Notes under the pieces: model-generated
Told to the model about the DNA's origin: nothing
Seen by the model: the letters and a program-made list of their open reading frames with translations, nothing else
Databases searched by the model: none
Shown here: in pieces, positions 18,559-36,628 of the stretch
Layout: each line of letters opens with the position of its first letter
How positions within the stretch are numbered: the stretch's first letter is position 1
Made by a program: the position numbers and the translations under genes
DNA from: Oscillospiraceae bacterium
GTDB lineage: Bacteria; Bacillota; Clostridia; Oscillospirales; Acutalibacteraceae
Direction of reading: 5' to 3'
Assembly: GCA_902787025.1 (NCBI GenBank)
Contig: CADAER010000010.1
Coordinates: 1-41,639, forward strand
Length of the DNA stretch: 41,639 bases

Positions 18559-20375
18559 TCACGCCGATATTTCTTTGCCCGGGCGTTTTTCTGATTCTTC
18601 GGCATACTGCATCAGACTTTTGACGGGAATAAACCCTATAAAGTCATATTTGATGTGGATTTTACGGATGCGGTGTTTCTTTGCCGTTGACGACTTCGGC
18701 TTTTTGCTGATTACGATGCATTTGCCTTCATTGTCATCAACTTCGATATTTTCATCCTGATTGTTTTCAACATCGCAGTTTTCAATGTATATGCCCTGAA
18801 CCAGTTCATGAAGATTGCAGCCGTTAAGACCGTTATCTTCAATGTGAGACCTGACAAGTGAAATGAACTTGTCAAGATTCTCTGTATTCTGTTCCTGTGT
18901 TTCGATTTGTTTTTGCAACTGTATTGCTTTTGATTTGAGTTCGGATTGTTCGGATTCAAGCTGAGCGGAGATTGTCTGAAATCTTTCTTCAGTCAATTTG
19001 CCGTTTGCATTATCCTCATAACTCTTGAGATAAAGACGGTCAATTTCGGATATACGGTTTTCTGACTGAGCAAGTTGCTTTTTCAGAGATTTCAGTTCCA
19101 GTTGACTGATGCTTTCTGTTACCCGCTTCATATATTCACGGAAATAACTTTCGTGGCAGTAAACATAAGAGATAACCTGCTTGATATGCATCCAGACAAG
19201 TTCCTTCAGAACGGATTCTCTTATATAGTGCGCCGGTTCTCCGTTTCTGCTGTTCGGGCATTCAAAGAAAGCTTGGTTGTCGTCTGAGCGTGACAAGTTG
19301 CGGCTTAATCTGTTACCACAATCATAGCAGTAAAGCAATCCTGAAAAAATTGTGCTTTTTCCCGACTTTGTTCTGCGATGACGCTTCTCGCGAATCTGCT
19401 GAACTTTTCTGAAGGTTTCTTCATCGATTATTGCTTCATGAGTATCGGGAGTGATGACCCAGTTTTCTTTCGGATTGTGCCTCGTTTTCTTATCCCAAAG
19501 AGAATTTGTGTATGTTTTAAATGCTGCTGTGCAACCGGTATATTCAATGCGAACGAGTATATCGGCAACACTTGATGGCTCCCACCTGTATGGACTGTCT
19601 TTGACTTTGGTATTGACCGGCAGTCTTTTTTCAATTTTGTAAGCAGTGGGATTAAACACTTTTTCGGCTTCCAGTTGTTTGGCAATCTGACTTGGTCCTC
19701 TGCCTTCCATACACAGAGCAAAGATATGTTTTACGACCTTTGCCGCCTCGTCATCAATAATCCAGTGATTGTTGTCATTCGGATCTTTTTTGTATCCGTA
19801 AGGGATTAATGTGGTGAGGGTTTTACCGCTTTCACCTTTCATTTTCTTAACGGCTCGTATTTTTCTGCTTGTGTCAAGCGGGTAAAACTCATTGAACAGA
19901 TTCTTGAACAGAGCCATATCATTGTCAACACTGTTCGGGTTTGCGGAATCATAATGATCATTAACGGCTATATATCTTATTTCAAGCTGAGGAAATACAT
20001 ATTTCTGATAATAGCCGACCATTGTGGAATCTCTGCCGAGTCTGCTCAGGTCTTTTGTAACGATTGTTCCTACTTTGCCGGTCTGAGCATCGGAAAGCAT
20101 CTTCTGGAAACCGGGTCTGTCAAAGTTGGTGCCTAACCGTCATCAATGTAGAAAACGGGATTTGAAAATCTGTTTTCTTTTGCATAATTCAAAAGCATTT
20201 CCTTCTGGTTCTGAATGCTCATGGATTCTGCGTTTCGTTCATCTTCCTGGGATAATCTGCAATACAGTGCTGTAATCTTATTTGTTGCCGTGTTCAATTT
20301 TTCCTCCTTATCTGCGGCAACTGTCACAGGGTTGGTTACGGTTATATCATTACGGGCGTTAACATAAGTCATCAT
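18559..20375 (-). pseudogene. Large serine recombinase (TndX/TnpX-like), frameshifted
   Basis: A start at 20375 (GGAGGTCA, 7 bases, ATG) gives a resolvase domain with the catalytic serine at residue 42 in YCRLSQEDE. That frame reaches FYIDDG and stops at TAG 20135-20133. The following frame continues exactly where the family should (TNFDRPGFQKMLSD, then TKDLSRLGRD), so four bases seem to be missing at about 20134-20137 inside the expected FTG codons. Downstream come the recombinase domain, a zinc ribbon (CYDCGNRLS, then FECPNS), a long coiled coil (about 330-440) and a basic C-terminus. Intact enzymes of this type excise and integrate conjugative or mobilisable transposons. It overlaps the upstream acidic ORF by 17 bases. 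A sequencing error could also explain the break. Confidence 0.85.
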
Positions 20376-20700
20376 TTTCGGTGACCTCCGTCTGCTCGGT
20401 AATGGCAATATTGTTTATTTCATTATCAATAACTCTTTTTAACTTGTTATGTAAAAACTCTTCGCCGTCATAAGTTCCGTCAACAACATATGTAATTGAT
20501 TTAACCTGCTCTTCGATTTCAAATTCGGGAATAATAAATGCTGCTATGTTATTTACATTAAGATTATTCTCTTTATCAAAGAAAGTATAATGACTCTCAT
20601 GCGGCGGTGACGGTGCGTTTTCTTCATCGGGATTTTTATAGTAATACTCTAATATTTCATCCGCTTTCTTAATCGTATCATCAAAATTAATCTTATTCAA
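20359..20700 (-). CDS. Small acidic protein of unknown function in the recombinase operon
   Basis: The 113-residue frame has no ATG. A TTG at 20700 lies 8 bases after AAGGAGT, and a near-consensus promoter sits just upstream, so TTG is a credible start. The product is acidic and mostly helical at both ends (IKKADEILEYYYKN, then EEFLHNKLKRVIDNEIN). A central beta-like part contains FDKENNLNVNNIAAFIIPEF. No family is recognised. It overlaps the recombinase start by 17 bases, which implies translational coupling and a role linked to the mobile element, for example in regulating or assisting recombination. That role is an inference from position only. Confidence 0.6.
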   Translation of the reverse strand: MNKINFDDTIKKADEILEYYYKNPDEENAPSPPHESHYTFFDKENNLNVNNIAAFIIPEFEIEEQVKSITYVVDGTYDGEEFLHNKLKRVIDNEINNIAITEQTEVTENDDLC

Positions 20701-21032: not shown

Positions 21033-21680
21033 TCAGTCTGTATATTCGTGTTTCTCCGGAACATAGTCGTCGGTTTTATACTTGCTGTATTTCTCGGCTT
21101 TATCAGTTTTTGTTTCAGCGTTTTCGGAATAATCTATGGGAGTTTCAGAGATTGCATCATTGAGAATCATCTCAAGGTGTTCATATTCCGCATGCTCTCC
21201 TATTGAAGCCATAACAAAAGAATCACGGACATATCCGGCGCTTTGGGCCAGCAGTTCCTGGTCAAGACAGTAGCTGTAATGCTCAACAAAAAATGTGAGC
21301 ATCATTACTGTTACTTTTGTATTGCCTTCGCGAAACGGATGAACCTGCCAGAGTCTTGGGAACAAACGAGTAATCTTTTCAACAAACGATTCTCTGTCAA
21401 GTGTTTCCCATTTTACTTTATAGATATCACTGAATGCTTTCTTCAGGTCGCTGTCAATCTCGGTAACATTTGAATACCAGACGCTGTTTCCGGCGAGGAC
21501 TTTTTCTCTTTTGCGGATATTGATCTTTCTGTATTCACCTGCCCAATCATATACATCCTGAAAAAATTCAATGAATATACTTTATTCCTTCGGGAGAAAA
21601 ATCGTCGAAAGTAAATTTAATTTTTGTTTTTGAAATTGCCTGTTTCTCTGCTCAGTCTTATAACTTTTTTGTTCTGTCAT
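21033..21680 (-). pseudogene. Fic-domain protein, two frameshifts
   Basis: The intact C-terminal 110 codons hold the Fic motif HPFREGNTK, the active-site loop of enzymes that transfer AMP or other phosphate-linked groups to proteins. Upstream, in the same frame, the sequence still encodes EFFQDVYDWAGEYRKINI and a helical region, but a TAA interrupts it. The preceding piece, KTKIKFTFDDFSPEGIKYIH, lies in another frame (break near 21570), and the start MTEQKSYKTE lies in a third (break near 21643). The combined product would be about 210 residues. The usual Arg after GN-(G/T) is Lys here. Fic genes often travel with conjugative elements, which fits the neighbouring recombinase. No cognate antitoxin is seen. 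Confidence 0.72.
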
Positions 21681-21763
21681 ATAGGTGAAAGGGATGGAAA
21701 ACAGCACTTTTCACCTAAGATTGAAAAAATTTCGAAAAAAATCAAAAAATTTTCAAAAAATTT

Positions 21764-21793
21764 CAAACTATTTGCGTTTCCGGACTGTCTTAT
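21764..21793 (+). promoter_or_regulatory. ECF-type promoter motif, copy 1
   Basis: CAAACTATT (21764-21772), 12 bases, then CTGTCTTAT (21785-21793) and AGTGAAAGGGGCAG-like sequence (with one G for A change). The same words with identical spacing occur at 34324 and 34569. AAC in the upstream box and GTC in the downstream box are the core of many ECF sigma promoters. It lies 83 bases before the ATG at 21876 and is preceded by an A/T-rich tract. Confidence 0.6.
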
Positions 21794-21875
21794 GAGTGAA
21801 AGGGGCAGAGATGCATAAGACATCGACGCCGGAAAACAGACAAAAAAAACAAAAAAATGAAAGGATGAAAAAACA

Positions 21876-22607
21876 ATGAAAAAACTTACTGCATTATTAC
21901 TTTCGGCGGCAACAATACTCACACTTGCAACTCCCGCGTTTGCGGTCGAAGAAAACGCGGCGGTTCATGAGCAGGCAACCGAAGCTCAGGTATTCGAAAT
22001 TTCGGATGAGCAATTCGTTGAAACCGCGCAGACAGAAATACCCGACGCACAGGCAGCTGAAGAAAACAGCGTTGACGAAATTGCTCCGCAGGATGTTCAG
22101 ACACCGGACGGCGAACAGAGTAACGGCAACGAAGATGAAGACTCAATCTTCAGCAAAAAAGACCCCATCGCAATTATTTATCTCTGCGTTTCAGGTCCAG
22201 CGGCACATTACGGTTTCGGCCACACCTGGATCTGCATTAAAAACATCAGCAAAAAAGCTATTTCAATCGGCGATTATGAAATCAAGCCCGGTAAAATGTC
22301 AAGTTTCGGACTTCATCACTTTGACGGCATGCATATAAACGATGAAATGCGCCATTACAATCACCAAAAAGTTACAGCTCTTGCAAGAGAAATCAACGCG
22401 GAAGGTCTTGCAAAAGCAGAAAAAGAGATTCTCAGCAAAACCTGGAAATGGTATGAATATTTAGCTCACAACTGCACGAATTTCGCAACAACGGTCTGGC
22501 TCAGAACAACAGGTCAGTTTTTCCTCGCATTCTGCTTCCCGTTCATCGTTCAGATCCAGATGGCATGCAACAAAACAGAAAAACTTGCAATTGAAATTGA
22601 TGACTGA
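21876..22607 (+). CDS. Secreted protein with permuted NlpC/LRAT-like His...Cys domain
   Basis: The 243-residue protein has a signal peptide (1-23, ending TPAFA), an acidic low-complexity linker (24-90) and a domain at about 95-215. That domain shows His116 in GFGHTWICIKN and Cys200 in AHNCTNFATTVW. The order His first, then a Cys in an N-C-x2-F context, is that of circularly permuted papain-fold enzymes (LRAT, YiiX and similar groups). These act on amide or acyl bonds in lipids or peptidoglycan. The assignment is by motif logic, not a clear family match. A hydrophobic segment (about 213-228) near the C-terminus could hold it at the membrane. An AAAGGA site precedes the ATG, and an ECF-like promoter lies upstream, apparently placing it in the same regulon as the 34.4-kb genes. 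Confidence 0.62.
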   Translation: MKKLTALLLSAATILTLATPAFAVEENAAVHEQATEAQVFEISDEQFVETAQTEIPDAQAAEENSVDEIAPQDVQTPDGEQSNGNEDEDSIFSKKDPIAIIYLCVSGPAAHYGFGHTWICIKNISKKAISIGDYEIKPGKMSSFGLHHFDGMHINDEMRHYNHQKVTALAREINAEGLAKAEKEILSKTWKWYEYLAHNCTNFATTVWLRTTGQFFLAFCFPFIVQIQMACNKTEKLAIEIDD

Positions 22608-22654
22608 CAGACAGATACGGTTCTGAAAAATCAATCGGAAAGAAGGGTTGCTTA

Positions 22655-22789
22655 TTGAACCTCGATGAACTTATCAGACTCAGTCTTGAAAAAGCAGCGG
22701 AGAAGACCGATATGACGAATGAGCAGAAGGTTGAACTGCTGCTTAAAACCCTGACGGAGTTTTTGAAAAAACAAACGGAGTCCGACTGA
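22655..22789 (+). CDS. Short helical ORF, 44 codons, TTG start
   Basis: A frame from TTG 22655 to TGA 22787 encodes a charged, leucine-rich peptide (MNLDELIRLSLEKAAEKT, then NEQKVELLLKTLTEFLKKQT) with no membrane segment. AGAAGGG lies ahead of the TTG with a short gap. The amphipathic helix pattern and lack of other frames make a real small protein plausible. The start codon is weak and no homologue is recognised. A large inverted repeat begins two bases after the stop. Confidence 0.4.
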   Translation: MNLDELIRLSLEKAAEKTDMTNEQKVELLLKTLTEFLKKQTESD

Positions 22790-22791
22790 AA

Positions 22792-22901
22792 AACCGTCTT
22801 TCTTCGCAGGCAGCGTTGCTGCGAAAAGGAGAAAAGCCAATCCCCTTTGTTTGCTTCCGCATAAAAACAGGCGGCAACGCTGTCTGCGCGGGAGGACGGT
22901 T
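22792..22901 (+). other. 110-base long imperfect hairpin
   Basis: Two 28-base arms (22792-22819 and 22874-22901) are complementary at about 22 of 28 positions, with cores GGCAGCGTTGC and GCAACGCTGTC. The 54-base centre has further partial pairing. There is no T tract, so it is not a simple terminator. A structured RNA element or a small inverted-repeat mobile element (MITE) is possible. Confidence 0.5.
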
Positions 22902-22943
22902 GAACCGGAAACGGGCTTGTTAATAAAAATACATAAAATAAAC

Positions 22944-22973
22944 TTGAAATATATAGAAAAAATGTGGTATTAT
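22944..22973 (+). promoter_or_regulatory. Promoter of the sigma-factor gene
   Basis: TTGAAA (22944-22949) and TATTAT (22968-22973) are 18 bases apart, giving a sigma-A-like promoter with a leader of about 140 bases before the start at 23117. The leader contains an inverted repeat at 23022-23084. Confidence 0.55.
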
Positions 22974-23021
22974 TATGATTGGATTGGCTAATATAAAATA
23001 TGAAAAAGATTCTTTAACAGA

Positions 23022-23084
23022 CAACCGCGCCTGTCATATAATTTCAGATTTGTTTTTTGAAATAAGAATATGACGGGTCGGTTG
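23022..23084 (+). other. Inverted repeat in the sigma-factor leader
   Basis: CAACCG...CTGTCATAT (23022-23039) pairs with ATATGAC...CGGTTG (23068-23084), about 15 of 17 positions, around a 28-base loop. It lies between the promoter and the start of the sigma gene, so it could be a leader hairpin or a protein-binding site. There is no T tract after it. Confidence 0.45.
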
Positions 23085-23116
23085 ATTTTTGATTTTCTAG
23101 AAAAGGAAGATGGCTT

Positions 23117-24949
23117 TTGAATATTGACAAAGAAAAACTCACTGCCGAAGTTGTTAAATACCAGAACGGCGACGGCAACGCGTTTGAGGCGATTTACAAT
23201 CTGACAAACAAGGCGGCGTATTTTACCGCCATGAAAATTGTCAAAAACGAAGACGACGCCCAGGATGTTCTTCAGGACAGTTATGTCAAAGCGCTCGAAA
23301 AGCTTGCAACGCTTGACAAACCTGAATCGTTTATGAGCTGGTTCAATATGATTGTCGCGAACAACGCGAAGAACTATCTTGCAAAGAACAAGTCCGGCCG
23401 TTTTGTTGACACAAAGGTTGTAATTGATGAAGACGAAGGCGAAGAAGTCTCAATAGTTGAACTGATTGAAGACAAAGACGAGTGTTTTATTCCCGAGGCA
23501 AGCACGGAGAACACGGAGCTGTGCAACGATGTTATGTCGCTTATTGAAGGTCTGAGCGACGACAAACGAACCGCCGTTGTTCTTTACTACTACAATGAAA
23601 TGACAACAAAGCAGATTGCCGAATCGCTGGGCGTTAACGAGAACACAATCAAGAGCCGCCTTGTGCAGGCAAAAAAGGATCTTGCGGCAGGCATTCACGC
23701 TCTCGAAAAGAAGAACAAGAGCATTCTCGGCATCGCTCCCATGTCGGTTGTCCGCTGGGCGCTCAACTACAACGGTTCGGACGCTTATCAGAAAGATATG
23801 CCCGACTTCGCTCCGCTGCTTGAAAAAATTCAGGGGCTCGAGTCACACGGTTTTTCGGTTCTCGAAAAGCTTAAATTCAGAGTTGCTGACCTGTTCTCAC
23901 ATTTCGGTCAGAACGCAGGCGCGGGGCACGACAGAAGCGCGGTTATGAAATCCGCCGCGGCGATTGTCGCAACTGCTGGCGTTGTGGGCGGCGCGGTCGC
24001 CGGCACAAACGCAATAAAGAACAGAGATAAAACCCCGCCCGCAGAGACAACAACGGCTTATGTCGATCAGGTTGATTACGCAGATGAACAGATGTCAAAG
24101 TCAGATTCCGGCGGAAAAAAAGATGACACAATTTATCTGTTTGTTGACAAAGATAAAAAGAAAATCGACTCCGATGTGGAAATCCGGCAGATGAAATACG
24201 GTGTGCGAGGCAGTTTTATGACTTTTTATGTCAAAAAGGGCGGCGCTACCGAAACGGATGAAAAACGCCCGACCCTTGACAGAAGCGGATTCAGCGCAAC
24301 TTATGAAGAGCTTCTGCCTGCCGCAAATGAGAACAAAGCAAAATACGCCTCAATGATTAATTCAACTCTTGCCGATATAAATACCCTGCGAAGCGGAATG
24401 ACGGAACTCGCACTTGATGACACACTCACAGAGCAGGCGAATGTCCGCGCGGAAGAGATTGCGTGGTCGGGCAAAGATTTTGCAATAAGGCCCGACGGCT
24501 CGGATTACATAACTGTGTTTGAACAAAACGGAATGTCAACGGGCACAAGACTTGAATGCAGGGCATTCAATTACTCTTCATCCGCCGAGGCGGCAAAAAT
24601 CTGGAATGAAGACGAGAACAAAAAACTGATTACCAATCCGCTTATTACAAAAATCGGCGTCGGCGTGGCGGAAAACCCGGAAACAGGCAAATATGTTTTT
24701 GTCGTGCATCTCTATTCACCCTACGGGTCAGAGGCGCTGACCGGCAACAACCTGCTTGAGCGTTTCAGATACAACTACAATGACAATATCGATGAATCCA
24801 TCGGAAAGTCCTTCAACATAGCGGAATCATCGGAAGGTCTGGCTGATATTCCCGTTATAGGTCAATTGCTCAGTATAGACATACCGATTGACGGGCTGGT
24901 TAAATCCATAGTAGAAACCTTACAGGAAATAAACGAAAACAAACATTGA
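23117..24949 (+). CDS. Membrane-tethered ECF sigma factor fused to an extracellular CAP/SCP domain
   Basis: The 610-residue protein begins with a sigma-70 region 2 (about 15-90; DDAQDVLQDSYVKALEKL) and region 4 helix-turn-helix (about 138-190; MTTKQIAESLGVNENTIKSRL), the two domains of ECF sigma factors. After a linker comes one transmembrane helix (about 279-297), then an external part. That part includes a CAP/SCP-like domain at about 415-535 (LALDDTLTEQANVRAEEIA, RPDG, GVGVAENP, then VVHLYS). In typical bacterial members a His lies just before RPDG; here the sequence is FAIRPDG. The layout suggests a one-protein signalling device that must be cut or rearranged to free the sigma domains. 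The start is a TTG at 23117 after AAAAGGAAG, because the nearby ATG at 23110 runs to an early stop. The peptidase gene follows by 22 bases. Confidence 0.85.
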   Translation: MNIDKEKLTAEVVKYQNGDGNAFEAIYNLTNKAAYFTAMKIVKNEDDAQDVLQDSYVKALEKLATLDKPESFMSWFNMIVANNAKNYLAKNKSGRFVDTKVVIDEDEGEEVSIVELIEDKDECFIPEASTENTELCNDVMSLIEGLSDDKRTAVVLYYYNEMTTKQIAESLGVNENTIKSRLVQAKKDLAAGIHALEKKNKSILGIAPMSVVRWALNYNGSDAYQKDMPDFAPLLEKIQGLESHGFSVLEKLKFRVADLFSHFGQNAGAGHDRSAVMKSAAAIVATAGVVGGAVAGTNAIKNRDKTPPAETTTAYVDQVDYADEQMSKSDSGGKKDDTIYLFVDKDKKKIDSDVEIRQMKYGVRGSFMTFYVKKGGATETDEKRPTLDRSGFSATYEELLPAANENKAKYASMINSTLADINTLRSGMTELALDDTLTEQANVRAEEIAWSGKDFAIRPDGSDYITVFEQNGMSTGTRLECRAFNYSSSAEAAKIWNEDENKKLITNPLITKIGVGVAENPETGKYVFVVHLYSPYGSEALTGNNLLERFRYNYNDNIDESIGKSFNIAESSEGLADIPVIGQLLSIDIPIDGLVKSIVETLQEINENKH

Positions 24950-24971: not shown

Positions 24972-26468
24972 ATGAGAATCATCAGAAAATTTACAGCTGT
25001 TATTCTTGTGTTTTCCGTTCTCGCGTCTTTCGCCGTTCACGGTTCGGCTGTGTATGAGGTGTGGAACAGCAATATAGAAAACCTTGAGAATGTTTCATCA
25101 AATGTCAAAAATCAGAACAATAAAGGCAACTGCGTTTTCTGCGCAACTGCCTCGGCGGCTGAAAGCTTTGTCAAACTGTATTGGTATGAAGATACAGCGT
25201 TCGATGAGGGGCAGGCTGCAGACCCCGGCGACGGCACAGATGAGGGCTCGCTTGCAAATGTGCTCGGCTATGACAACAATTTTGAAAACCTGCAGAACAA
25301 TCTTACGGATAAACCGCTTAAAACAACAGCGGAGGGCGAATACGCAATTGATGATGTCAGGGCAGAAACAGAGCCGACCGCGGAGATAATCAAGAATATG
25401 GTTTATTCATACGGCAGCGCGGTCGTTTATTTCAACGTGCCCGAAAACCTGAGTTTTGAAAACCAGCAGTTTTATCACATTGACAACTATGCCTACTACT
25501 GCCCGCCCGACAAGGCATCGCCGAACGCCCAGCACGCGGTGTGCATAGTCGGCTGGGATGACACTTATTCAAACAGTATGTTTACCATCAGCAATAAGCC
25601 GGAAAATTCAGGCGCATGGATCTGCAAAAACAGTTACGGAACCGATTTCGGCGAAAACGGATATTGCTTCATTTCATACGATCAGGTGTTTTTCGGCGCG
25701 CTGTCAGTTTCGGTCTCAAAAGACGGCATTTCAAAAGACGTTGCCGTTATGCCGGAAGAGGGCGAGTTCTGCGACAAGCTTTATGTAATGCTTTCGGATG
25801 ACGGCAGTATGTCGGCTTACTCCTATGAAGCGGACGGCACCGTTCACAAATGCAAAACCGAAAAAGACTACACATCAAACTATTATGTGATTCACCCCGA
25901 TGAGGGAACATATTTCAGCAACGCCACTGCATGCTATCTCAACAGTGACGAGCTGCCCTACGGTCAGAACGACGATGTCGGAAACAACCCTTATTACAAA
26001 TGCGAGCAGGATGGCAAAATCATTCTTCAGACAGGCGGAAAAGGCGGGTTTGCCGTTACAAAAGTCGAAACCTCAAAATTCGACCTGGGATATATCAAAC
26101 TCACTTATGACAACAACTCAACCCGGTTCATTCTGAAAAGCTCTTTTGAAAACAACGGAATCACCTTTATTGATTACAAAGAGAATCCGGATGAATTCGA
26201 CGAAAGCAAATATGAAAATCTGCCCGAAGCCGGAAAAGGTCAGCACTACGCCGAGATAAAATTCAGCAGACAATTCGCGTTTAAAGAGGATTTTGAATGT
26301 GATGGTGAAAAATTCGCAAAACGCGGCGAAGCGGATGAAAACGGCGACATATTAATGGTAATTGCGGTTGTTGTCACCGAGTCAAATCCGCTTATCAGCG
26401 GTCTTGAACTGATAGGGGCTATTTTCGGGACTATTATCCCTTTGATTTTCAGCATTTTCAAAGCCTGA
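24972..26468 (+). CDS. Secreted papain-like (C1A) cysteine peptidase
   Basis: The 498-residue protein has a signal peptide (1-25) and starts almost directly with a C1 peptidase core, so there is no long propeptide. The oxyanion Gln48 and catalytic Cys54 lie in VKNQNNKGNCVFCATAS. The catalytic His188 is in NAQHAVCIVGWDD and Asn220 in WICKNSYGTDFGENGY. All four active-site residues are present. The region after 250 is a beta-rich C-terminal extension, like that of other bacterial surface C1 peptidases, ending in a hydrophobic stretch (about 472-497) that could anchor it. It lies 22 bases downstream of the membrane-tethered sigma factor with an AGAGGG site, so the two are probably co-transcribed. 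It is a natural candidate for cleaving the sigma factor's outer domain or maturing the surface proteins, which is an inference. Confidence 0.85.
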   Translation: MRIIRKFTAVILVFSVLASFAVHGSAVYEVWNSNIENLENVSSNVKNQNNKGNCVFCATASAAESFVKLYWYEDTAFDEGQAADPGDGTDEGSLANVLGYDNNFENLQNNLTDKPLKTTAEGEYAIDDVRAETEPTAEIIKNMVYSYGSAVVYFNVPENLSFENQQFYHIDNYAYYCPPDKASPNAQHAVCIVGWDDTYSNSMFTISNKPENSGAWICKNSYGTDFGENGYCFISYDQVFFGALSVSVSKDGISKDVAVMPEEGEFCDKLYVMLSDDGSMSAYSYEADGTVHKCKTEKDYTSNYYVIHPDEGTYFSNATACYLNSDELPYGQNDDVGNNPYYKCEQDGKIILQTGGKGGFAVTKVETSKFDLGYIKLTYDNNSTRFILKSSFENNGITFIDYKENPDEFDESKYENLPEAGKGQHYAEIKFSRQFAFKEDFECDGEKFAKRGEADENGDILMVIAVVVTESNPLISGLELIGAIFGTIIPLIFSIFKA

Positions 26469-26517: not shown

Positions 26518-29500
26518 ATGAAAATAAACAAAGGATTTGCAAAAAGAGCGCTGGCGTTTCTGCTCTGCTTCGTTATGCTCTCGGGCGTTTCGCCGCTGAA
26601 CGCGCTCGCTGAGGTTGATTTTTCACGGTTCAACATTTCACTGCCCGAATTCCGTCTGCCCGAATTCAATCTTTTCGGCACGAAGGCGTCGGCGGATGGC
26701 GAACTGCCCGTTTCGGGTTATTGCGGTTATGACAGCGACGGCGACGGCGAGCCGGATTACAATTTAACCTGGCAGTTCTGGGATGACGATACATCACTTC
26801 ATATATGCGGCGAAGGCGCGATGCAGAACTACTCGCTGCAGAACCCCGCGCCGTGGAGCGTTTACAAGAATGTAATCACTGCAATCTTCATAGAAGACAC
26901 CGTAACAACTTTAGGCGATTACGCGTTTTTTGATTTTGCGATTGCGAATTATTCCTTTACCGACTTTACTCTCGCATCAGGCTCATATTCAATCGGCGGC
27001 ACTGTGACTTCAGACATTCTCTGGCAATTTGACACAGGGCTTCATAAACTGAGTGTTGAAGGCTCCGGCGCAATACCGGATTATTCTGCGGCTGACCGCG
27101 CGCCGTGGTCCGCTTTGCTTGGGCGGTGCGGCGAAATCGAAATAGACAGTTCAATAACAGCCATCGGCGATTATGCTTTTTTTGTTAATTATGAGTGGTA
27201 TTCATTGCAGGAGCTGGATATTCCCCAGAGCGTGGTTTCAATCGGCGATTACGCTTTTTACGGCGCATGCCTGCGGGATGTTAACATTCCCCAAACCGTG
27301 ACTTCGGTAGGCGAAAACGCGTTCGGCGGCTTCGGGTTTGACTGTTACGACGGCACGCCAATTGTCGATGTCTGGACTTATGATTACTCTCAGAAGGTTC
27401 TTTATGTAGGTAATGAATACACAAATAATATCGGCAATTACTCACTGGATGACCCCGCGCCGTGGTATGCCTTCCGCGACGAGGTTGAGAGTATTGAATT
27501 TACGGGAGAGCATCTGTATATCGGCGATTACGCGTTTTATGATTTCGAGGCGCTGACGGAGTTGTTTATTCCCGGTAATGTAGAGAAACTTGGCAGATAT
27601 GCATTCGGCAGGTCATTCAACGCGTATAATGACGGCAATTTTGAATATACTCTTACAGATGATATAAAATTCAACAGCCCATTATCATCTATGCCGCAAT
27701 ATAATATTTATTATGTTGATATGAGCATAAAAATGCAGGGGCTCAAAAAGGTTTTCTTCAAGTCCCAATACACAGAGTTGTCAAAAACAACTTTTGACAA
27801 CTGCTTCTCTATGGAAGAAGTCTATTTTCCCGGTGACAGTTCTGCCGGTTTCAGTGTTTATGACAGCTCCAATCACAACTTTCCGGATGAGCCGGATGAT
27901 CCGATTGAGTCTGTAAAAGTCCGTTATAAAGACTATTGCATGCAATATCTGAACCGTAATTTTACAAGCGCCTCTTCAGTGTCAGGCGTGAACAATGTAA
28001 TTCAGGCATTGATAAGTGTTTATAAATTATTTGGACAAGAAAACCAATTGGAAAATCTGGGAAACAATTATTTTATTATCAACTCCGGATTCTACACTCC
28101 GCGTTACCCGAACATAACATACGATGAAGGCGGATTCATTCAGAATGAAATAATCACAGTCAATTACAACTGCATAAGCGGCAAAAGCGCAGACTGCTTC
28201 TGGTATGTTCAGCAAAATGTTCTTTATATTCTCGGCGAAGGCGTATGCGGCGATGGTGAACAACCTGTTGTGGATCATTATTTCAGTTCGGTTGATACAA
28301 TCTCCTTTTCGGATGATATTACCGCAATTGCCGACAACGCTTTCGGCAATCTTTATAATATCAAATATCTGAAATCGCCCGGCGGCGTTCAGTCAATCGG
28401 CGAAAACGCTTTCGGCACACCAAGCGGAACATTCAAAAACCCCGACGGCAGCACCTCGGAAAGCATATATTTCGAATATCAATACGAATACTATATTGCC
28501 GGTTATGATGAAGAAAGCCGGAACACCGGCAATTATACGACGCCGTCGGAATACTGGCTTATAAAAACAAGGGCATTTGATCCTTATCCAATTTATACCG
28601 TCAAAGGAAAGACTTCAATTATAGCAGGCGGAGCATTAAAACCTAAGAATAGTGAATGGGCTGACTATCTTACGGAACTGACCCTGCCGTCAAGCGTTGA
28701 ACACATCGGCAAAAACGCTTTTGAAAAGTGTATAAATCTGAATACAGTCAATTATTACGGCACAAATACAGACTGGAACAATATTGTTATTGAAGAAGGC
28801 AACGACCCTCTGCTCAATGCTCAGCGCGTCCGACCTCCGTTCACCGTTCCCGTTTACATTAACGGCGTTGATGACGGCACAGCCACCGGTTTTTGCGAGT
28901 GGAACGAAGATGATACAATAACGCTGACAATCAGCGCGGAAGAACAGGATAGCTACCGTATGACAATAACGAGCGTCAGCTTTGACAGCGCCGGCGTTGA
29001 CGGTGAAGCAGTCAGGTCTCTTGTAATCAACGCGCCGGTTGAAGGCATTGACACCGATGCGTTCAAAAACCTTACAAATCTTGAAAACATTACTCTGCCC
29101 GGTTCACTCAGAAGCATAGAGGCAGATACATTTGAAAACACAGCTTATTACAACAATGAATCCAATTGGGAAGAAGGGGTTCTCTACATCGGCGACTGCC
29201 TTGTCAAAGCGGACCCCGCCATTACCGGAGCATATACAGTTAAAGATGGCACAAGGTTAATCGCCGACAGCGCTTTTGCCGGCTGCACAAAGCTGACGGG
29301 CGTAACCGTTCCCGGCAGCGTTGAAATAATCGGCAAAGATGCTTTTAACAACTGCGTAAAGCTTGCGGATATCACCCTGCCCGGCTCTCTTAAAAACATT
29401 GGCGCAGACGCTTTCACAAACACCGCTTATTACAACGACTACGCAAACTGGACGGTAACAAATATCCTTTACCGCGAGCTTTATATCGGCGGCTGCCTCA

Positions 29501-32500
29501 TTGATGTTGAAAGATATCAGTCCAACCGTGATTATTACCCGGTAAGAATTGATGCCGCCTGCGTAGCCGACTGCGCGTTTGCAAAAATTGCTGACAACAA
29601 TGGCAAATGCGACATTTATGTTCTGAATGAAAACACGGTATTTTCCGACAATGCATTCAGCGGCTTGAGTTTCACAAACAATTCAGCCTCGAAAGTGTAT
29701 TACTACGGAACGAGGGATGACTGGAACAACAGCAACAGCAGACTGGGTTACGACAGTTCATTGCAGTGCATTTATGAAGGCGGATATTTCACGACATCTT
29801 CAATCGGTAATATATTCAATCCCAGTGACAATCTGAAAATAACCGGATTGAATCAGACTCTCAGAGTCTTGAAAATTCCCGGGGAGATAAACGGAAAAAC
29901 GGTTACAGAGATCGCATCTTCGGCATTCGAAGACAACACGGGAATTGACTCGCTCTATATTCCGGAAACAATTGCCAAAATTAATACATCTGCCTTCAGC
30001 GGATGTAGGAATCTTTCATATATTTATTGCGATGCCGAATGCTCGTTAGGGGGGACTTTTTTTACTCTTTATCCGTTTTACAATGTCGGCTCAGACACAG
30101 ACGGCGTTATTCTTGAACTCGGTGAAAATGTAACAACTGTCAAAAGCTGGGCTTTTAATCCGATATTTTTATCGGCTTTTAAAATCAAAAAACTGATTAT
30201 ACCGGCGAATGTTACAACCATTGAAGCTAATGCTTTCCGTTTTGTAGGCGCAACTGCAGGACCCATAGGCGGCGGTTATGACTATGAATTCGGCTGGGAT
30301 GAAACAATACCTCCGAACGCGTTTTCAAATATGTCGTCACTTCAGAACATAACACTGCCCGAAGGCATAATAAGCATAGGCGACAGCGCGTTTTACGGTT
30401 GCAAAATGCTTGAAAGCATTAATATTCCCGGAAGCTTAACAAGCATAGGCACGAATGCTTTTGGTGGTGGCGGTGTATTTGGCTTATCAGGTTTATCTAA
30501 TCTGAAAACCGTTAATTATTACGGAACAATCAAAGACTGGTGCAACATCAGTTTTGCAAACCGGACTGCTAACCCTATAAACAGTTCAAAGAAACTGTTG
30601 ATTAACGGTGTGGAAATAACAGAAATAAAAAAAGCCGATATTAACGGGGTTACGGAAATAAAACCGTTTGCGTTCTGCGGAATGACAGGGCTCACAAATG
30701 TAACTTTACCCGAAACGGTAACAATCATAGGCGCCAGCGCGTTTTACGGTTGCACAAAACTTGAAAGCATATACATTCCCGAAGGCATTACAAGCATAAG
30801 CAGTTCAACATTCAGCGGATGCGCTGCGCTGACAAACATAGAAATGCCTGAAAGCGTGACAAGCATAGGCAGTTCGGCGTTCAGTGGATGCTGGAATCTT
30901 CCGGATGATTTCACCGTGCCCGCAGGCGTAACAAGCATCGGCGCGAACGCGTTCTATGATGTGTTCAATGTGAAATATGAAGGCAGTGCCCAGGGCGCTC
31001 CATGGGGCGCGAAAAGCGTGAACGGAGTTGTCAAAACTTATGAGGGAACAGACGGCAACAAATATAAACTTGTTTTTGCCCCCACCACAGAGAAAGCAAG
31101 CTCAAAGTCGGTGCTTCTCGGCTGTTCCGCCGATGCGGCAGGCACCGTAACCGTTCCGCGCTCGGTCAGCTATGTCGGCGACAGAGCGTTCGCAAACTGC
31201 AGCGGCATTGAAACAATTATTTTCAACGCGGCTGAGCCGGGTTACGGAAAAGATCCGTTCGTCGGCTGCCCCGCCGAAAAAATCTACACCGTAACGGAAG
31301 TCTATGCCAGAGATGTTATTTACGGCGACGAGGGAACAAGACTTATTTCATGCAGCAAAAACAGAAAAGACAATTACACCGTTCCCGAAGGCGTAAGAAT
31401 AATTGAAGAAAACGCGTTTTACAACTGTGACAAGCTCGGCAGCATAACACTGCCCGGTTCTGTTGTGAGCGTCGGCGTGCACGCGTTTGAAGGCACATCA
31501 ACTTACACAGCGGCAAAAGCAAGCCCCGTAACCGTTGAAGACAAAGACGGCAACGGCACGTTCACCCTTGTTTACATCGGCGGCTGCCTTGTTGAGGCGA
31601 CCTGGGTTCAGAAAGAAACCGCAGACGAACAGGAAGGCGAAACAGGCGAAGAAGAGCCGAAAGAACTAACCGTAATCTGCGAGCTGCCCGAAAAAACAAC
31701 CTGCATTGCGGCAAACGCGTTCTCTGGCTGCCCCGAACTGACAGGTGTTGTTCTTGACAAAAGCCTTAAGGGAATAAGCGAAAACGCATTTGCCGGCTGC
31801 TCAAAACTTAAAACAATCACGGCGGCAGAGGGCATCTGCATTGAACATGTCGGCGAAAACGCTTTTGCAGGCACGGCTTATTACAGCACAAATTCTAACT
31901 GGCAGAACGGCGCACTGTATATTGCCGACTGCCTTGTGAAAGTAAAACCCGCAACATCGGACGGATTCACAGTTGCGGAAGGCACCACCTGCATTGCCGA
32001 CAGAGCTTTTGACTCCTGCAAATCTTTAACCTCCGTAACCGTTCCCGAAGGAGTAGTAACAATAGGCAGTAACGCTTTTGACGGCTGCACTGCGATTACA
32101 GAAATAACTCTCGGCGAAGGCACAGAAAGCATCGGAAACGAAGCATTTGAATACTGCACAGCGCTCACCGCAGTTGAAATTCCGTCAACCGTTACAAGAA
32201 TCGGCAACAGGGCTTTCTACCGCTGTGACGCACTTGAAGAAATAACCGTCAGGGGAAACAGCAGAAACTTACCTGTTTATTACTCGGTAAACGGCGTTCT
32301 CTTCAGAAACAAGAACACCGGAACGGAAGAAGAACCCGTTTTTGAAAAGCATCTTGTTGCTTACCCCGCCGCAAGAGATGCCGCTGAGTATGAGATACCC
32401 GAAGGCGAAGCAAATGTTTTTGACAACTTTGCCTTTGCATACTGCGAAAAGCTTGAAAAGGTAACATTCCACGGTGTTTCATACAGAACAGTCGCGTTCT

Positions 32501-34131
32501 ATGAATGCGGAGCCGAGCGTATCTCCGACAACCTCAGGGAAGGCGTTGAAGTCAGCGAAGACGGCACAATGCTTATGCAGGTAACCGCTGCCGCGCTGGA
32601 TGAAGACGACGGTTTCATCGTGCCCGACGGAGTAAGAACAATCAGCGGCGCCGCCTTCAGTTCGGTTAAAAACAAGCTTACAAGCATCGACCTTTACGGC
32701 GCGCAGTTCATTGTTAACGGAGCGTTTGAAAACTGCACGGAACTTGAGACCGTCACGGGCAGTGAAGACGTACTTTATGTAGGCGACAACGCGTTTAACG
32801 GCTGTAAAAAGCTTGAAGGCATAAACCTGAGCGGTGTCAACACCATCTGCCCGGGCGCTTTCAGAGGTTGCAAGAAGCTTAACGACACAAATGTTATCAT
32901 AAGCAGAAAAGCTGTGTTTGCCGCCGATTCGTTTGATTTTAAGCCCGACAGCAATCTGAAAATTGACACTTACAGCAACGAAACGGTAAGCAGCAAACCC
33001 GTGCCGGAAAGCGGCGAACTTACCATTGACTACGGCAGCAATGTCACGCTTGACACATTAACGGAGATTCCCGGCGAGATTGTGTGGCTGAACGCGAGAA
33101 CCGGCGATGTCATAACCGGCGGCAGAACGGCAACCCTCTCTGATGTTAACGATGACGTTGAAATTCAGGCGGTCATTATGGAGGATTCCGGCATTCTCGT
33201 GCAGTCCGCTCCCGTTAAAATCATAGTTGACAACATTCCCGTTGAAATAGAAATACCTGATGATTATAATTCAGGCGACAACACAATCTGCTGTGATTTC
33301 TGCACAACGCTTGGTCTTAGCCTGCCCGTTTACCTTGAAGACGGAGAAGTCACATGGTATAAATCCACAGACGGAGAAAACTTTGAACCCTTTGACATAA
33401 GCAAACCCATTGTTGAAGATATGGATATACGAGCATCCGTAAAAAGCGGCGGCAGAACATACCAGACCCAGATAATCACCGTAAAAGTCAAGGCGCCGGA
33501 TATCGGCTATAATTCAGAAGCGGAATCAGAAAAGATTACGGAAAAAACCGTTACACTCGGGGTCAACCTCACCGGAGACGGAACCGCAATTCCGAAAGAA
33601 ACTCTCAACAAACTTACCTTTGAATGGTATATAGGCAACAAAAAGGTCGGCGAAGGAACCGAGTGCACATTCAGTGGCATTGAGAAAACCTTCAAGGTAA
33701 CGGTAAAAGTTAAGTATAAAGGCACAAAAATCGGCAGTTACGTTTACACCGTCAATGTTGAAGAACAGACCGTAACAACAGACGAGGCTGATATTAAAAT
33801 CAAAACAAACGGCAAAACCGAAAAGACGGTTGATTACAAATCATCCGTCACATTCACCGCAGAAGTTAACAACCTCCCGAAGGGCGCTAAAATTCAGTGG
33901 TATAAAAACGGCAACCCCGAAAAAGGCGAGAACGGTGAAAAATATAAGGTCGAAACCCTGACTTCTGACTGCAAGGTTCAGGCAAAGATTCTTGACAAAA
34001 ACGGCAAGCCCATTTGTGCAAGCAAGGTCCAGACGGTCAAAGTCAAAACCGATTTCTTCTCCAAACTTATTGCGCTGTTCAGGCAGATTTTCCGCCTGCT
34101 GCCAGATGTTAAATGGGAGAATGTAAAATAA
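26518..34131 (+). CDS. Giant BspA-like leucine-rich repeat surface protein
   Basis: The 2537-residue protein has a signal peptide (about 1-31), a short segment with LPEFRLPEFNLF, then a very long array of BspA/TpLRR-type repeats (about 60-2140). The repeat has the form IxIPxSVTxIGxxAFxxCxxL; I see several dozen units. Some islands break the array, including repeated blocks around ADCLVK or GDCLVKADPA. From about 2160 to 2510 come several Ig-like domains rich in Lys-Val, and the last 24 residues form an amphipathic tail (FFSKLIALFRQIFRLLPDV). There is no LPXTG motif. BspA-like proteins bind host matrix proteins or other microbes. The C-terminal Ig domain and tail match those of the gene at 36247. 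A good AAGGAG site lies ahead of the ATG, and a terminator follows at 34148. Confidence 0.9.
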   Translation: MKINKGFAKRALAFLLCFVMLSGVSPLNALAEVDFSRFNISLPEFRLPEFNLFGTKASADGELPVSGYCGYDSDGDGEPDYNLTWQFWDDDTSLHICGEGAMQNYSLQNPAPWSVYKNVITAIFIEDTVTTLGDYAFFDFAIANYSFTDFTLASGSYSIGGTVTSDILWQFDTGLHKLSVEGSGAIPDYSAADRAPWSALLGRCGEIEIDSSITAIGDYAFFVNYEWYSLQELDIPQSVVSIGDYAFYGACLRDVNIPQTVTSVGENAFGGFGFDCYDGTPIVDVWTYDYSQKVLYVGNEYTNNIGNYSLDDPAPWYAFRDEVESIEFTGEHLYIGDYAFYDFEALTELFIPGNVEKLGRYAFGRSFNAYNDGNFEYTLTDDIKFNSPLSSMPQYNIYYVDMSIKMQGLKKVFFKSQYTELSKTTFDNCFSMEEVYFPGDSSAGFSVYDSSNHNFPDEPDDPIESVKVRYKDYCMQYLNRNFTSASSVSGVNNVIQALISVYKLFGQENQLENLGNNYFIINSGFYTPRYPNITYDEGGFIQNEIITVNYNCISGKSADCFWYVQQNVLYILGEGVCGDGEQPVVDHYFSSVDTISFSDDITAIADNAFGNLYNIKYLKSPGGVQSIGENAFGTPSGTFKNPDGSTSESIYFEYQYEYYIAGYDEESRNTGNYTTPSEYWLIKTRAFDPYPIYTVKGKTSIIAGGALKPKNSEWADYLTELTLPSSVEHIGKNAFEKCINLNTVNYYGTNTDWNNIVIEEGNDPLLNAQRVRPPFTVPVYINGVDDGTATGFCEWNEDDTITLTISAEEQDSYRMTITSVSFDSAGVDGEAVRSLVINAPVEGIDTDAFKNLTNLENITLPGSLRSIEADTFENTAYYNNESNWEEGVLYIGDCLVKADPAITGAYTVKDGTRLIADSAFAGCTKLTGVTVPGSVEIIGKDAFNNCVKLADITLPGSLKNIGADAFTNTAYYNDYANWTVTNILYRELYIGGCLIDVERYQSNRDYYPVRIDAACVADCAFAKIADNNGKCDIYVLNENTVFSDNAFSGLSFTNNSASKVYYYGTRDDWNNSNSRLGYDSSLQCIYEGGYFTTSSIGNIFNPSDNLKITGLNQTLRVLKIPGEINGKTVTEIASSAFEDNTGIDSLYIPETIAKINTSAFSGCRNLSYIYCDAECSLGGTFFTLYPFYNVGSDTDGVILELGENVTTVKSWAFNPIFLSAFKIKKLIIPANVTTIEANAFRFVGATAGPIGGGYDYEFGWDETIPPNAFSNMSSLQNITLPEGIISIGDSAFYGCKMLESINIPGSLTSIGTNAFGGGGVFGLSGLSNLKTVNYYGTIKDWCNISFANRTANPINSSKKLLINGVEITEIKKADINGVTEIKPFAFCGMTGLTNVTLPETVTIIGASAFYGCTKLESIYIPEGITSISSSTFSGCAALTNIEMPESVTSIGSSAFSGCWNLPDDFTVPAGVTSIGANAFYDVFNVKYEGSAQGAPWGAKSVNGVVKTYEGTDGNKYKLVFAPTTEKASSKSVLLGCSADAAGTVTVPRSVSYVGDRAFANCSGIETIIFNAAEPGYGKDPFVGCPAEKIYTVTEVYARDVIYGDEGTRLISCSKNRKDNYTVPEGVRIIEENAFYNCDKLGSITLPGSVVSVGVHAFEGTSTYTAAKASPVTVEDKDGNGTFTLVYIGGCLVEATWVQKETADEQEGETGEEEPKELTVICELPEKTTCIAANAFSGCPELTGVVLDKSLKGISENAFAGCSKLKTITAAEGICIEHVGENAFAGTAYYSTNSNWQNGALYIADCLVKVKPATSDGFTVAEGTTCIADRAFDSCKSLTSVTVPEGVVTIGSNAFDGCTAITEITLGEGTESIGNEAFEYCTALTAVEIPSTVTRIGNRAFYRCDALEEITVRGNSRNLPVYYSVNGVLFRNKNTGTEEEPVFEKHLVAYPAARDAAEYEIPEGEANVFDNFAFAYCEKLEKVTFHGVSYRTVAFYECGAERISDNLREGVEVSEDGTMLMQVTAAALDEDDGFIVPDGVRTISGAAFSSVKNKLTSIDLYGAQFIVNGAFENCTELETVTGSEDVLYVGDNAFNGCKKLEGINLSGVNTICPGAFRGCKKLNDTNVIISRKAVFAADSFDFKPDSNLKIDTYSNETVSSKPVPESGELTIDYGSNVTLDTLTEIPGEIVWLNARTGDVITGGRTATLSDVNDDVEIQAVIMEDSGILVQSAPVKIIVDNIPVEIEIPDDYNSGDNTICCDFCTTLGLSLPVYLEDGEVTWYKSTDGENFEPFDISKPIVEDMDIRASVKSGGRTYQTQIITVKVKAPDIGYNSEAESEKITEKTVTLGVNLTGDGTAIPKETLNKLTFEWYIGNKKVGEGTECTFSGIEKTFKVTVKVKYKGTKIGSYVYTVNVEEQTVTTDEADIKIKTNGKTEKTVDYKSSVTFTAEVNNLPKGAKIQWYKNGNPEKGENGEKYKVETLTSDCKVQAKILDKNGKPICASKVQTVKVKTDFFSKLIALFRQIFRLLPDVKWENVK

Positions 34132-34323: not shown

Positions 34324-34353
34324 CAAACTATTCCGGTTTTTCATCTGTCTTAT
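34324..34353 (+). promoter_or_regulatory. ECF-type promoter motif, copy 2
   Basis: CAAACTATT (34324-34332), 12 bases, CTGTCTTAT (34345-34353), followed by AAGTGAAAAGAGCAGAG. Spacing is identical to copies 1 and 3. It lies 64 bases before the ATG of the 44-residue membrane peptide. Confidence 0.62.
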
Positions 34354-34416: not shown

Positions 34417-34551
34417 ATGACTATCACCTCTTTAGTATGCACACTCAGAGAAATGATTTTCCCCGGCATGGGAGCACTTGCAATCGCATTCCTGATTACA
34501 TGCATCCCCGGAATTTCGGATTCCGAAAGCACTTTCAAAAACAAAAAATAA
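34417..34551 (+). CDS. 44-residue membrane peptide
   Basis: ATG 34417 follows AAAAGGAG with a good gap, and the frame ends at TAA 34549-34551. The peptide MTITSLVCTLREMIFPGMGA continues with one hydrophobic helix (about residues 19-32) and a polar tail ending FKNKK. It is too short for routine gene callers. Evidence that it is real is the strong ribosome binding site, the dedicated ECF-like promoter 64 bases upstream and a second such promoter immediately after it. No homologue is recognised. A small regulator, a signalling peptide or a membrane-acting peptide are all possible. Confidence 0.6.
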   Translation: MTITSLVCTLREMIFPGMGALAIAFLITCIPGISDSESTFKNKK

Positions 34552-34568: not shown

Positions 34569-34598
34569 CAAACTATTTCAATTCCTCATCTGTCTTAT
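34569..34598 (+). promoter_or_regulatory. ECF-type promoter motif, copy 3
   Basis: CAAACTATT (34569-34577), 12 bases, CTGTCTTAT (34590-34598), followed by AAGTGTAAGAGGCAG. It starts 18 bases after the small peptide's stop and lies 69 bases before the ATG of the B-repeat protein. Confidence 0.62.
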
Positions 34599-35705: not shown

Positions 35706-36188
35706 ATGTCTGATTATGAAAACACCGGCACTGTTAACAGTGAAGTCGTCTCAGCCCCTGCAAACGAATATCAACCGTCAAACGCACCTGTTCGCCTGCT
35801 TAAGACAAACAGAGGAACCCTTAAAACGATTCTTTTAACAATTATTACTCTCGGCATTTATCCGCTTTTTCTTTACCATAATCTGTCTGAAGAACTGAAT
35901 ATTACCGCTTCAAGATATGACGGAAGAAAAACAATGAATTTTTTGCTGCTCTTCTTTATAGTAGGCCCCATTACTCTCGGAATCGGTTTTCTTGTCTGGT
36001 TTCATAATTTCAGCGCAAGAGCCGGCAAGGAGCTGAAACGCAGGGGAATTGACTATTCTTTCGGAGCTTCATCTTACTGGTTATGGAGCGTTCTTGGAAT
36101 AATCTTTATTATCGGTCCGTTTATTTATCTGCACAAACTCCTCAAAGCAATTAATCTTATTAATGAGGATTACAATCAGAAAGGTTAA
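35706..36188 (+). CDS. DUF4234-like membrane protein
   Basis: The 160-residue protein has a polar N-terminus, then three membrane segments at about 38-58 (LLTIITLGIYPLFLYHNL), 78-100 and 122-143. The TLGIYPLFLYH phrase and overall layout match the DUF4234 family of bacterial membrane proteins, whose function is unknown. AAAGGAG lies ahead of the ATG. Its position between secreted repeat proteins in a uniform plus-strand cluster suggests a part in surface-protein export or envelope sensing, but nothing in the sequence proves it. Confidence 0.75.
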   Translation: MSDYENTGTVNSEVVSAPANEYQPSNAPVRLLKTNRGTLKTILLTIITLGIYPLFLYHNLSEELNITASRYDGRKTMNFLLLFFIVGPITLGIGFLVWFHNFSARAGKELKRRGIDYSFGASSYWLWSVLGIIFIIGPFIYLHKLLKAINLINEDYNQKG

Positions 36189-36628
36189 AAACAATAAAAA
36201 ACTTCGGATATTTCAAAGGCACTTCAAAAAACAGGAGGAATTTCAAATGAAAAAAACATTCACAAAAACCACGGCGCTGTTTATGGCAATTATGATGCTG
36301 CTCGGTTCGGCGGCGGCCGGCGCGGGCGGATTCGCTCAGGCTCTTGACACATTGAGCGTCAGGGCAAGCGCGGCAGACACTGAATATACAGACACTGCTC
36401 AGGGCATTAAATTCAAAGCTGACAGCGCTATAGTCATTACCGGCTACACAGATAATCTCCGGGTCGGCGCAGACGGCAGCTACACAATTCCTACGAAGGT
36501 TTCAAACGGCACAACGGAATACAATGTAACGCAGATAGGTTCCGGCGCATTTAATGGATGCACTAAAATAAAAAATTTAACTATTCCCGAAGGAATAACT
36601 TATATCGGTTCTTCTGCATTTAAAAGCT

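Follow-up and report, generated by a model that had tools for sequence, protein, structure and literature searches.

An ECF sigma factor, a single membrane helix, and a CAP domain are joined in one chain of 610 residues that is encoded in the window (the whole 41,639-nucleotide stretch of DNA analyzed here), much as the first-pass annotation had read it. At the level of sequence, this architecture, the matching gene order around an ortholog in a second species, the strong conservation of the CAP domain, and a promoter motif with its placement in the locus are firmly established. The protein is likely to act as a one-piece receptor-sigma that is released by membrane proteolysis, for which we infer the topology, the cleavage, the ligand or signal, the use of the motif by the sigma, and a housekeeping promoter for the sigma gene. 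In most ECF systems, the sigma factor and the membrane anti-sigma are separate proteins.

Domain organization of the sigma-TM-CAP protein

The gene and the parts of its product are:

23117-24949 (+): sigma-TM-CAP gene, 610 aa, TTG start, complete ORF
23216-23392 (+): sigma region 2, residues 34-92 (Pfam PF04542, Sigma70_r2, E 1.8e-8)
23528-23683 (+): sigma region 4, residues 138-189 (Pfam PF08281, Sigma70_r4_2, E 1.3e-14)
23705-23764 (+): conserved stretch after region 4, residues 197-216 (alignments; EKKNKxxxGxAPxxxVxWAL in the window and the ortholog)
23942-24013 (+): single Gly/Ala-rich membrane helix, residues ~276-299, ending TNA (hydropathy, alignment)
24389-24709 (+): CAP domain, residues 425-531, both tetrad His replaced (Pfam PF00188, E 9.5e-7)

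Sigma-70 regions 2 and 4 are present and region 3 is absent (Pfam), which is the pattern of an ECF sigma, and TIGR02937 scores 89.2 bits against a cut-off of 42.9. The TTG start corresponds to ATG at the matching codon of the ortholog (alignment), and the only cysteines are at residues 123, 136, and 481. No anti-sigma family is present among the 16 Pfam families listed at E ≤ 1; at the same threshold, nothing between region 4 and the helix matches a zinc-finger anti-sigma domain, and no known domain that would keep the sigma silent was found in the protein. A candidate for a silencing element is the stretch at residues 197-216, possibly an inhibitory or membrane-touching element, which is separated from the helix by a poorly conserved linker (alignments).

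A C-terminal membrane helix, as in ECF52, ECF53, and ECF48, is recognized by hydropathy and alignment. Its hydrophobic core (residues ~276-294) is weak, with a mean hydropathy of 1.66; helix scores across the 53 fusions counted below run from 1.55 to 3.61. The helix ends with Ala at or beside one column in 13 of 24 aligned rows (by eye; TNA in the window), and this Ala could conceivably mark a signal-peptidase site. We take the CAP domain to lie outside the cell. A topology in which a pair of membrane helices would leave the CAP domain in the cytoplasm was rejected, the first hydrophobic stretch (near residue 205) being short and containing a charged residue; it is also disfavored by the C-termini of relatives (LRR, SH3, CAP), which would usually be external.

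An AlphaFold model from the sigma domains to the helix has a mean pLDDT of 59.3, with blocks of 76-88 in both sigma domains, a short helix at residues 208-219 (block pLDDT 62-74), and most of the remainder below 50. Confidence is restricted to the two sigma domains and, at a lower level, helix 208-219, so no inhibited pose can be claimed. The best Foldseek matches are ECF sigmas solved with their anti-sigma (8z6g, 1or7; E 1e-6 to 5e-6), at TM-scores of ~0.25 by query length, which are low because only the sigma domains are modeled confidently and their mutual placing differs; the sigmaE region 2 structure 4lup_A is matched with an rmsd of 1.6 (E 7.3e-3).

PF00188 matches the CAP domain at 30.1 bits, above the curated cut-off of 21.1 (31.9 bits in the ortholog), in agreement with the earlier reading of the sequence. 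The loss of the His before RPDG, also recorded there, is evident in the alignment (FAIRPDG in the window, FAARPDG in the ortholog), and a second CAP His proves to be gone as well when the protein is compared by eye with a CAP lipoprotein of the same genus (DENKKLI in the window). The latter, a free protein from a third genome of the genus (G145, locus L020), has HSHRRPNG, GENI, and SETHLKNIL; by eye, the Glu is kept in the sigma-CAP protein and in its ortholog while both His are lost. We take the two missing His to belong to the metal-binding tetrad of CAP/SCP domains; since both are replaced, the window CAP is probably a binding domain. No PDB sequence matched the CAP region at E up to 1, nor did AlphaFold, run on residues 330-610 without relatives, yield a CAP fold (mean pLDDT 34.4).

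The ortholog (locus L041) is encoded in G015, a genome of the same genus, and is ~63-65% identical over its whole length (63% by BLASTP over 609 columns). By part, identity is 78/95 in region 2, 48/60 in region 4, 96/107 in the CAP domain, and 6/35 aligned positions in the Ala-rich linker, such that the CAP domain is the best-kept part, above the sigma itself. That a CAP domain without its metal-site His is nevertheless more conserved than the sigma points to a specific bound partner.

Gene neighborhood and a conserved microprotein

The sigma gene is surrounded by the following features:

21764-21793 (+): ECF-type promoter motif before gene 21876, exact copy; a site lies upstream of the ortholog too
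21876-22607 (+): exported 243-aa protein with HNCTNFAT motif, ORF upstream of the sigma gene
22655-22789 (+): gene for a 44-aa microprotein, with a TTG start, conserved where sigma fusions are encoded
22792-22901 (+): very stable hairpin between the microprotein and sigma genes (z -6.7; ortholog -7.9)
22944-22973 (+): possible, weak sigmaA-like housekeeping promoter of the sigma gene, TTGAAA-N18-TATTAT
23021-23088 (+): leader hairpin before the sigma start codon (z -3.4; ortholog -2.4)
24972-26468 (+): exported papain-like C1 peptidase (Pfam PF00112, E 1.8e-7)
26518-34131 (+): giant exported BspA-type LRR protein (Pfam LRR_5, E 1.3e-184)
34324-34353 (+): ECF-type promoter motif ahead of ORF 34417-34551, exact copy
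34417-34551 (+): small ORF for a hydrophobic 44-aa product, following the second motif
34569-34598 (+): ECF-type promoter motif before the InlB-repeat gene 34667, exact copy; a site lies before the G015 counterpart
34667-35524 (+): gene of an exported InlB-repeat (Listeria-Bacteroides repeat) protein, following the third motif (domain scan)

The papain-like peptidase that had been noticed downstream does start 22 bases past the sigma-TM-CAP stop. By eye, the Cys, His, and Asn motifs can be made out and are kept in both species, the peptidase at the like place in G015 being 37% identical; this neighbor might conceivably make the first cut of the sigma-TM-CAP protein. The LRR giant likewise has a counterpart at the same place in G015 (best segment 41% identical over 1344 columns, BLAST), as has the product of gene 34667 (44% identical over 286 columns, BLAST). 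Order and strand in G015 are those of the window (sigma-CAP, then C1 peptidase, then LRR giant), and the pairing of fusion and C1 peptidase, suggested as something to seek in other genomes, thus recurs in a second one.

The 243-aa protein upstream had been called thiol-hydrolase-like. It is exported and carries HNCTNFAT, from which motif the name was read, and Pfam gives no match for it at E ≤ 1. The ortholog locus lacks the gene at the corresponding position, and a relative (L146:7826-8515; 47% identical over 219 columns, BLAST) lies on another G015 contig, accompanied by a microprotein gene and behind its own ECF-type motif.

Two hairpins precede the sigma gene. The stable one at 22792-22901 was considered and rejected as a dispersed repeat, its 17-base core occurring at two places in the window's genome (G000) and three in G015 at one mismatch; for the leader hairpin, 3 of 200 shuffles of the ortholog sequence fold as well. 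Rfam returned two matches over 21400-23200, both far below the family thresholds. The sequence CTGTCATAT at 23031 in the leader was dismissed as a further promoter, as it forms one arm of the hairpin. A scan of the region for sigmaA-like sites found 32 against 24.1 expected, including a better-scoring site at 23014-23042, within the leader hairpin; the ortholog has TTGACT-N18-TATAAT at the like place (by eye).

The first-pass annotation saw no separate anti-sigma gene nearby. Pfam scans of the neighboring genes uphold this, but the conserved 44-aa ORF at 22655-22789 is a possible partner. ORFs of 44-49 aa with the consensus MNIxEIIRxSL...ExKxELLLxILTxYLK occur at seven loci: 184-462 bases before the sigma ORF at six (the window, L041, L036, L037, L038, and L039), and ahead of an LRR gene in the same cluster at the seventh (L035). 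Differences between the two species are distributed 16/5/24 over the codon positions. The microprotein could belong to the regulon or act as a small regulator. As the true regulator of the system, it would be a small anti-sigma or co-factor made from a sigma-dependent transcript, exerting negative feedback on the freed or tethered sigma; this would suit its recurrent position beside the fusions, its single copy in the window's genome, its location behind an ECF-type motif in the window, L041, and L035, and the existence of small anti-sigmas, exemplified by the NepR-bound ECF sigma among the Foldseek matches (5uxx). Against this, a search of 12 chosen genomes finds the microprotein in three (a single copy in the window's genome, three copies in G015, and one weak and partial match in G048), while the nine genomes without a match, in which a 45-residue profile may miss distant forms, all have sigma fusions. 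Furthermore, the third G015 copy (G015:C22) follows a relative of gene 21876 with no sigma gene in 18 kb, as might be expected of a mere regulon member. Such a regulatory role seems unlikely.

Proposed release of the sigma and a candidate promoter motif

Under the receptor-sigma reading, the one helix would tether the N-terminal ECF sigma domains to the cytoplasmic side of the membrane, with the degenerate CAP domain binding some ligand outside. An outside signal would trigger a first cut close to the external end of the helix, made perhaps by signal peptidase, by analogy with RsiV, or by some exported protease, after which a site-2 protease of the RseP/RasP type would free the sigma domains; the freed sigma would take RNA polymerase to the CAAAC-N17-TGTC promoters of its own locus. 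The genes switched on would be those for the exported 243-aa protein and its microprotein, the small membrane peptide, and the InlB-repeat surface protein, with the sigma, peptidase, and LRR genes probably driven by a housekeeping promoter. M50 proteases are encoded in the window's genome, which says little because they are also present in 14 of 14 control genomes.

The tethered sigma might instead be active without cleavage, a ligand outside altering the inner domains in the manner of ECF41-type C-terminal control. PMC8999054 describes C-terminal extensions of ECF41 that act by conformation, and the conserved stretch after region 4 is modeled as a helix. Nevertheless, a single helix behind so poorly conserved a linker would be a poor rod for a conformational signal, and IutY, described as the one experimentally characterized membrane sigma fusion (PMC8999054, PMC5411451), is cleaved. 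We regard activity in the uncut state as doubtful, and release by proteolysis remains the preferred reading.

ECF promoters take the form AAAC, ~17 bases, TGTC (AAC / GTC type). The motif CAAACTATT-N12-CTGTCTTAT has this form and is present in three exact copies in the window (none in 100 shuffles), as listed above. No further site occurs in the window even at three mismatches, nor elsewhere in the window's genome at ≤2 mismatches, although at 87.7% completeness some sites may be missed. G015 has just two places at ≤2 mismatches, and both flank the ortholog: one before the small gene upstream of the sigma, the other before the counterpart of gene 34667. Matches with exactly three mismatches (four more in G000, three in G015, and one in G145) are noise, because a reversed-pattern control at up to three mismatches gave similar counts (two, five, and three, respectively). 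The motif thus stands before the upstream exported gene and two genes beyond the LRR gene; it is absent directly before the sigma, peptidase, and LRR genes.

A promoter matrix trained on the window and L041 only was scanned over 51 other fusion loci. At a score of 18, it gave 4/0/0 matches (sigma strand/other strand/shuffled), and at 15 it gave 9/2/1, one of the nine being a shadow of the best. The eight distinct matches fall in 7 of the 51 loci, leaving 44 without a match at a score ≥15; they include matches in L034 (of the ortholog's genome), L051, and L123, which lie 57, 187, and 76 bases ahead of the respective sigma ORFs, and two far from the sigma (L125, L055) that may be due to chance. 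At the sequence level, this shows an enrichment of the motif at fusion loci rather than a rule. A wider matrix, trained partly on the loci scanned, scored 20.9 at L073 on the wrong strand. Other close fusions of G015 have their own motif variants (one copy at L034, two at L035), and a further variant is common to L036, L038, and L039, with one copy each 3 to 8 kb before the sigma; no variant was found at L037. A strict AAC-N-GTC rule for repeated promoter pairs found pairs in few loci, and the direct repeats of L036, L038, and L039 form no promoter family.

From position, we infer that the motif is paired with the sigma of the fusion. A different sigma might serve the motif, the fusion having some other role in transcription or none: other ECF-like sigma genes are present in the window's genome, the fusion gene lacks the motif directly before it, and most other fusion loci have no match to the matrix. 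Yet at ≤2 mismatches the motif is confined to the sigma-CAP locus in both species, the G015 paralogues adjoin motif variants of their own, and the matrix matches at other fusion loci favor the sigma strand, all of which makes service by another sigma quite improbable.

Related sigma fusions and known systems

Proteins related to the fusion were gathered at three levels. In a family-level search of 150 genomes, 38 gave a match at E ≤ 1e-10, a count that takes in plain ECF sigma genes. At class level (391 genomes), all 20 matches below E 1e-33 are long open frames of 396-823 aa from 15 genomes, whereas only one of 42 weaker matches (to 1e-25) is long (396 aa), the others having 181-273 aa; these counts are a lower bound, five candidates having been scored per genome. 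At phylum level (398 genomes), three of six matches at E ≤ 1e-30 are long frames. Six of seven related loci come from records named as Clostridia, Clostridiaceae, or Ruminococcaceae bacteria, and the seventh, from Phycisphaerae, is a plain sigma. An artefactual joining of separate genes for a sigma and an exported protein, by assembly or frameshift, is conceivable for a draft genome in 114 contigs but is refuted by independent genomes and has practically no remaining probability, given the whole-length match in the second species, the 53 fusions in the tree (one from a single-contig genome, G221), and the lack of an internal stop in any of the 20 strongest class-level matches.

The tree holds 79 sigma rows: 53 fusions, 22 plain sigmas, and 4 that are neither, according to a crude rule for fusions (a tail >150 aa plus a hydrophobic stretch). 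It is a quick tree, with 30 of 76 inner forks open and its rows gathered by likeness to the window protein. The fusion label is clustered on it, with 3 changes against a shuffled mean of 22. Strongly supported branches force all three changes, partly because the four 'neither' rows, one of which is cut by a contig end, count against the label; the fusion architecture may therefore have more than one origin.

Pfam was run on 41 of the 53 fusions, of which 15 have a named ectodomain above cut-off (LRR_5 in seven, WG in three, CAP in two, and SH3_3, DUF3298, and DUF5050 in one each) and 26 do not. Among the tree labels, L127 WG and L128 DUF5050 are both below cut-off, and L053 is called LRR without a Pfam scan. 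The sigma domains that carry CAP (the window, L041) and LRR (L034) are close relatives (at paths of 0.33 and 0.44 from the window), so ectodomains have been exchanged. In another relative, L064, the sigma is joined to DUF3298 above cut-off and to PdaC (PF13739, which we take to be the same as DUF4163) below cut-off; a PDB sequence search with this ectodomain gave no match at E up to 0.01. DUF3298 and PdaC are the domain pair of the lysozyme-receptor anti-sigma RsiV, as reported in PMC5014341, and by analogy L064 suggests that such fusions are a sigma together with its receptor.

We give an even chance to a broader proposal, in which single-chain sigma receptors that lack the usual anti-sigma domain form a large class in Clostridia. 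Its constant inner part would comprise the ECF sigma with a short motif behind region 4, then a variable linker and a Gly/Ala-rich helix; its ectodomains (CAP, BspA-LRR, WG, SH3, DUF5050, RsiV-like) would be exchangeable; and the promoter variant of each sigma would lie at its own surface-protein locus. Variants of the ECF-form motif do lie beside some of the other fusions. If the proposal is true, bacteria would have a counterpart of those membrane receptors that release their inner portion by cleavage to control genes. Since one protein would combine the two roles and its outside part could be swapped, the sensing repertoire would be partly readable from sequence, and single-chain sigma receptors could supply ready parts for one-gene sensors. 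The local promoter motif would offer a direct target set, making the circuit open to a reporter test. Literature searches turned up no description of such a fusion family in Clostridia; groups like it may be listed in the main ECF classification (10.1093/nar/gkaa1229).

Exported CAP/SCP proteins (PF00188) share the domain match with the window protein, and the same-genus CAP lipoprotein is similar across the CAP part; they differ in having the usual tetrad His pair, both of which are replaced in the window CAP. SigV-RsiV of Bacillus subtilis and Clostridioides difficile offers an external receptor with one helix, and RsiV is described as a lysozyme receptor cut by signal peptidase and RasP (PMC5014341, PMC9044953). 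The ectodomain of L064 brings its DUF3298 and PdaC onto a sigma, whereas RsiV is separate from its sigma and the window ectodomain is CAP, with no Pfam match to DUF4163 (PdaC) or DUF3298 in the window protein.

Closer in architecture are ECF52 (SCO4117 of Streptomyces coelicolor), ECF48, and ECF53, which are described as having an ECF sigma, a membrane helix, and an external domain in one chain, as in the window protein, and for which release of the sigma by proteolysis has been proposed (PMC5826349, PMC8999054). ECF52, reported as exclusive to Actinobacteria, comprises a zinc-finger domain, a proline-rich region, and a carbohydrate-binding domain (PMC5826349), whereas the window protein has none of these, carries CAP instead, and has named relatives that are clostridial. 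IutY of Pseudomonas putida (ECF243) is presented as a sigma and anti-sigma in one membrane polypeptide that is cut by Prc and then RseP (PMC5411451), and so illustrates that a fusion of this kind can work through such cleavage. IutY differs in serving iron-carrier cell-surface signaling with an outer-membrane receptor; no such domain, and no match to the periplasmic cell-surface-signaling anti-sigma domain, was found in the window protein by Pfam. By analogy, the window protein probably works like ECF52 and IutY, but it is not classed with them.

Left flank of the sigma gene and its hairpins

The following features lie to the left of, or lead into, the gene for the one-chain sigma factor with a CAP domain:

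18559-20408, minus strand: fragmented large serine recombinase with small ORFs
22792-22901: very stable hairpin between the microprotein and sigma genes (z -6.7)
23021-23088: leader hairpin of the sigma gene (z -3.4)

The recombinase pieces carry Recombinase, zinc ribbon and DUF4368 domains, one of the small ORFs gives a weak Fic match, and the pieces adjoin a fall in GC from 0.52 to 0.40; this stretch is probably a mobile-element remnant. The intergenic hairpin is present in both species (z -7.9 at the orthologous locus of G015, a genome of the same genus) and has no T-run, as judged by eye. A dispersed repeat was checked for this hairpin and ruled out. The leader hairpin (ortholog z -2.4) may possibly control translation of the sigma gene.

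A common tail of large exported proteins

34030-34119 and 38124-38219: C-terminal tail, consensus GFFxKLIAFFRxLFGxLP
36163-36750 and 36798-38222: LRR/InlB-repeat gene, apparently spread over two reading frames

This tail closes large exported proteins, and it recurs at the ends of exported genes in L041 (the orthologous G015 locus) and in the loci L043, L036, L038 and L039. At a threshold of E<=0.01, by which the counts take in weak matches, the genome that holds the window has 26 copies and G015 has 35; G145 (a third genome of the genus) has two, G148 six and G077 a single weak one, with no match in the seven remaining genomes searched. The tail resembles a signal for surface sorting or anchoring and belongs mostly to the window's genus. 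The LRR/InlB-repeat gene is perhaps interrupted; the domain scan covered its second piece, 36798-38222.

Further sigma fusions and a two-gene unit in G015

L074, G000:C40 14154-16316, minus strand: second, distant sigma fusion of the window's genome
L146:7826-8515 and about 8571, G015: two-gene unit of a 243-aa-type exported protein and a microprotein

The L074 fusion bears WG repeats and an SH3 match slightly under the cut-off; L068 (G015) encodes a similar protein, and in the tree L067 (G145) is a neighbour. Two other sigma fusions, L044 and L047, have a zinc-ribbon-like N-terminal part preceding region 2, both matches being under the Pfam cut-off. The L146 unit, set apart in G015, has its own ECF-type motif upstream and is a possible trans target of a G015 sigma fusion.
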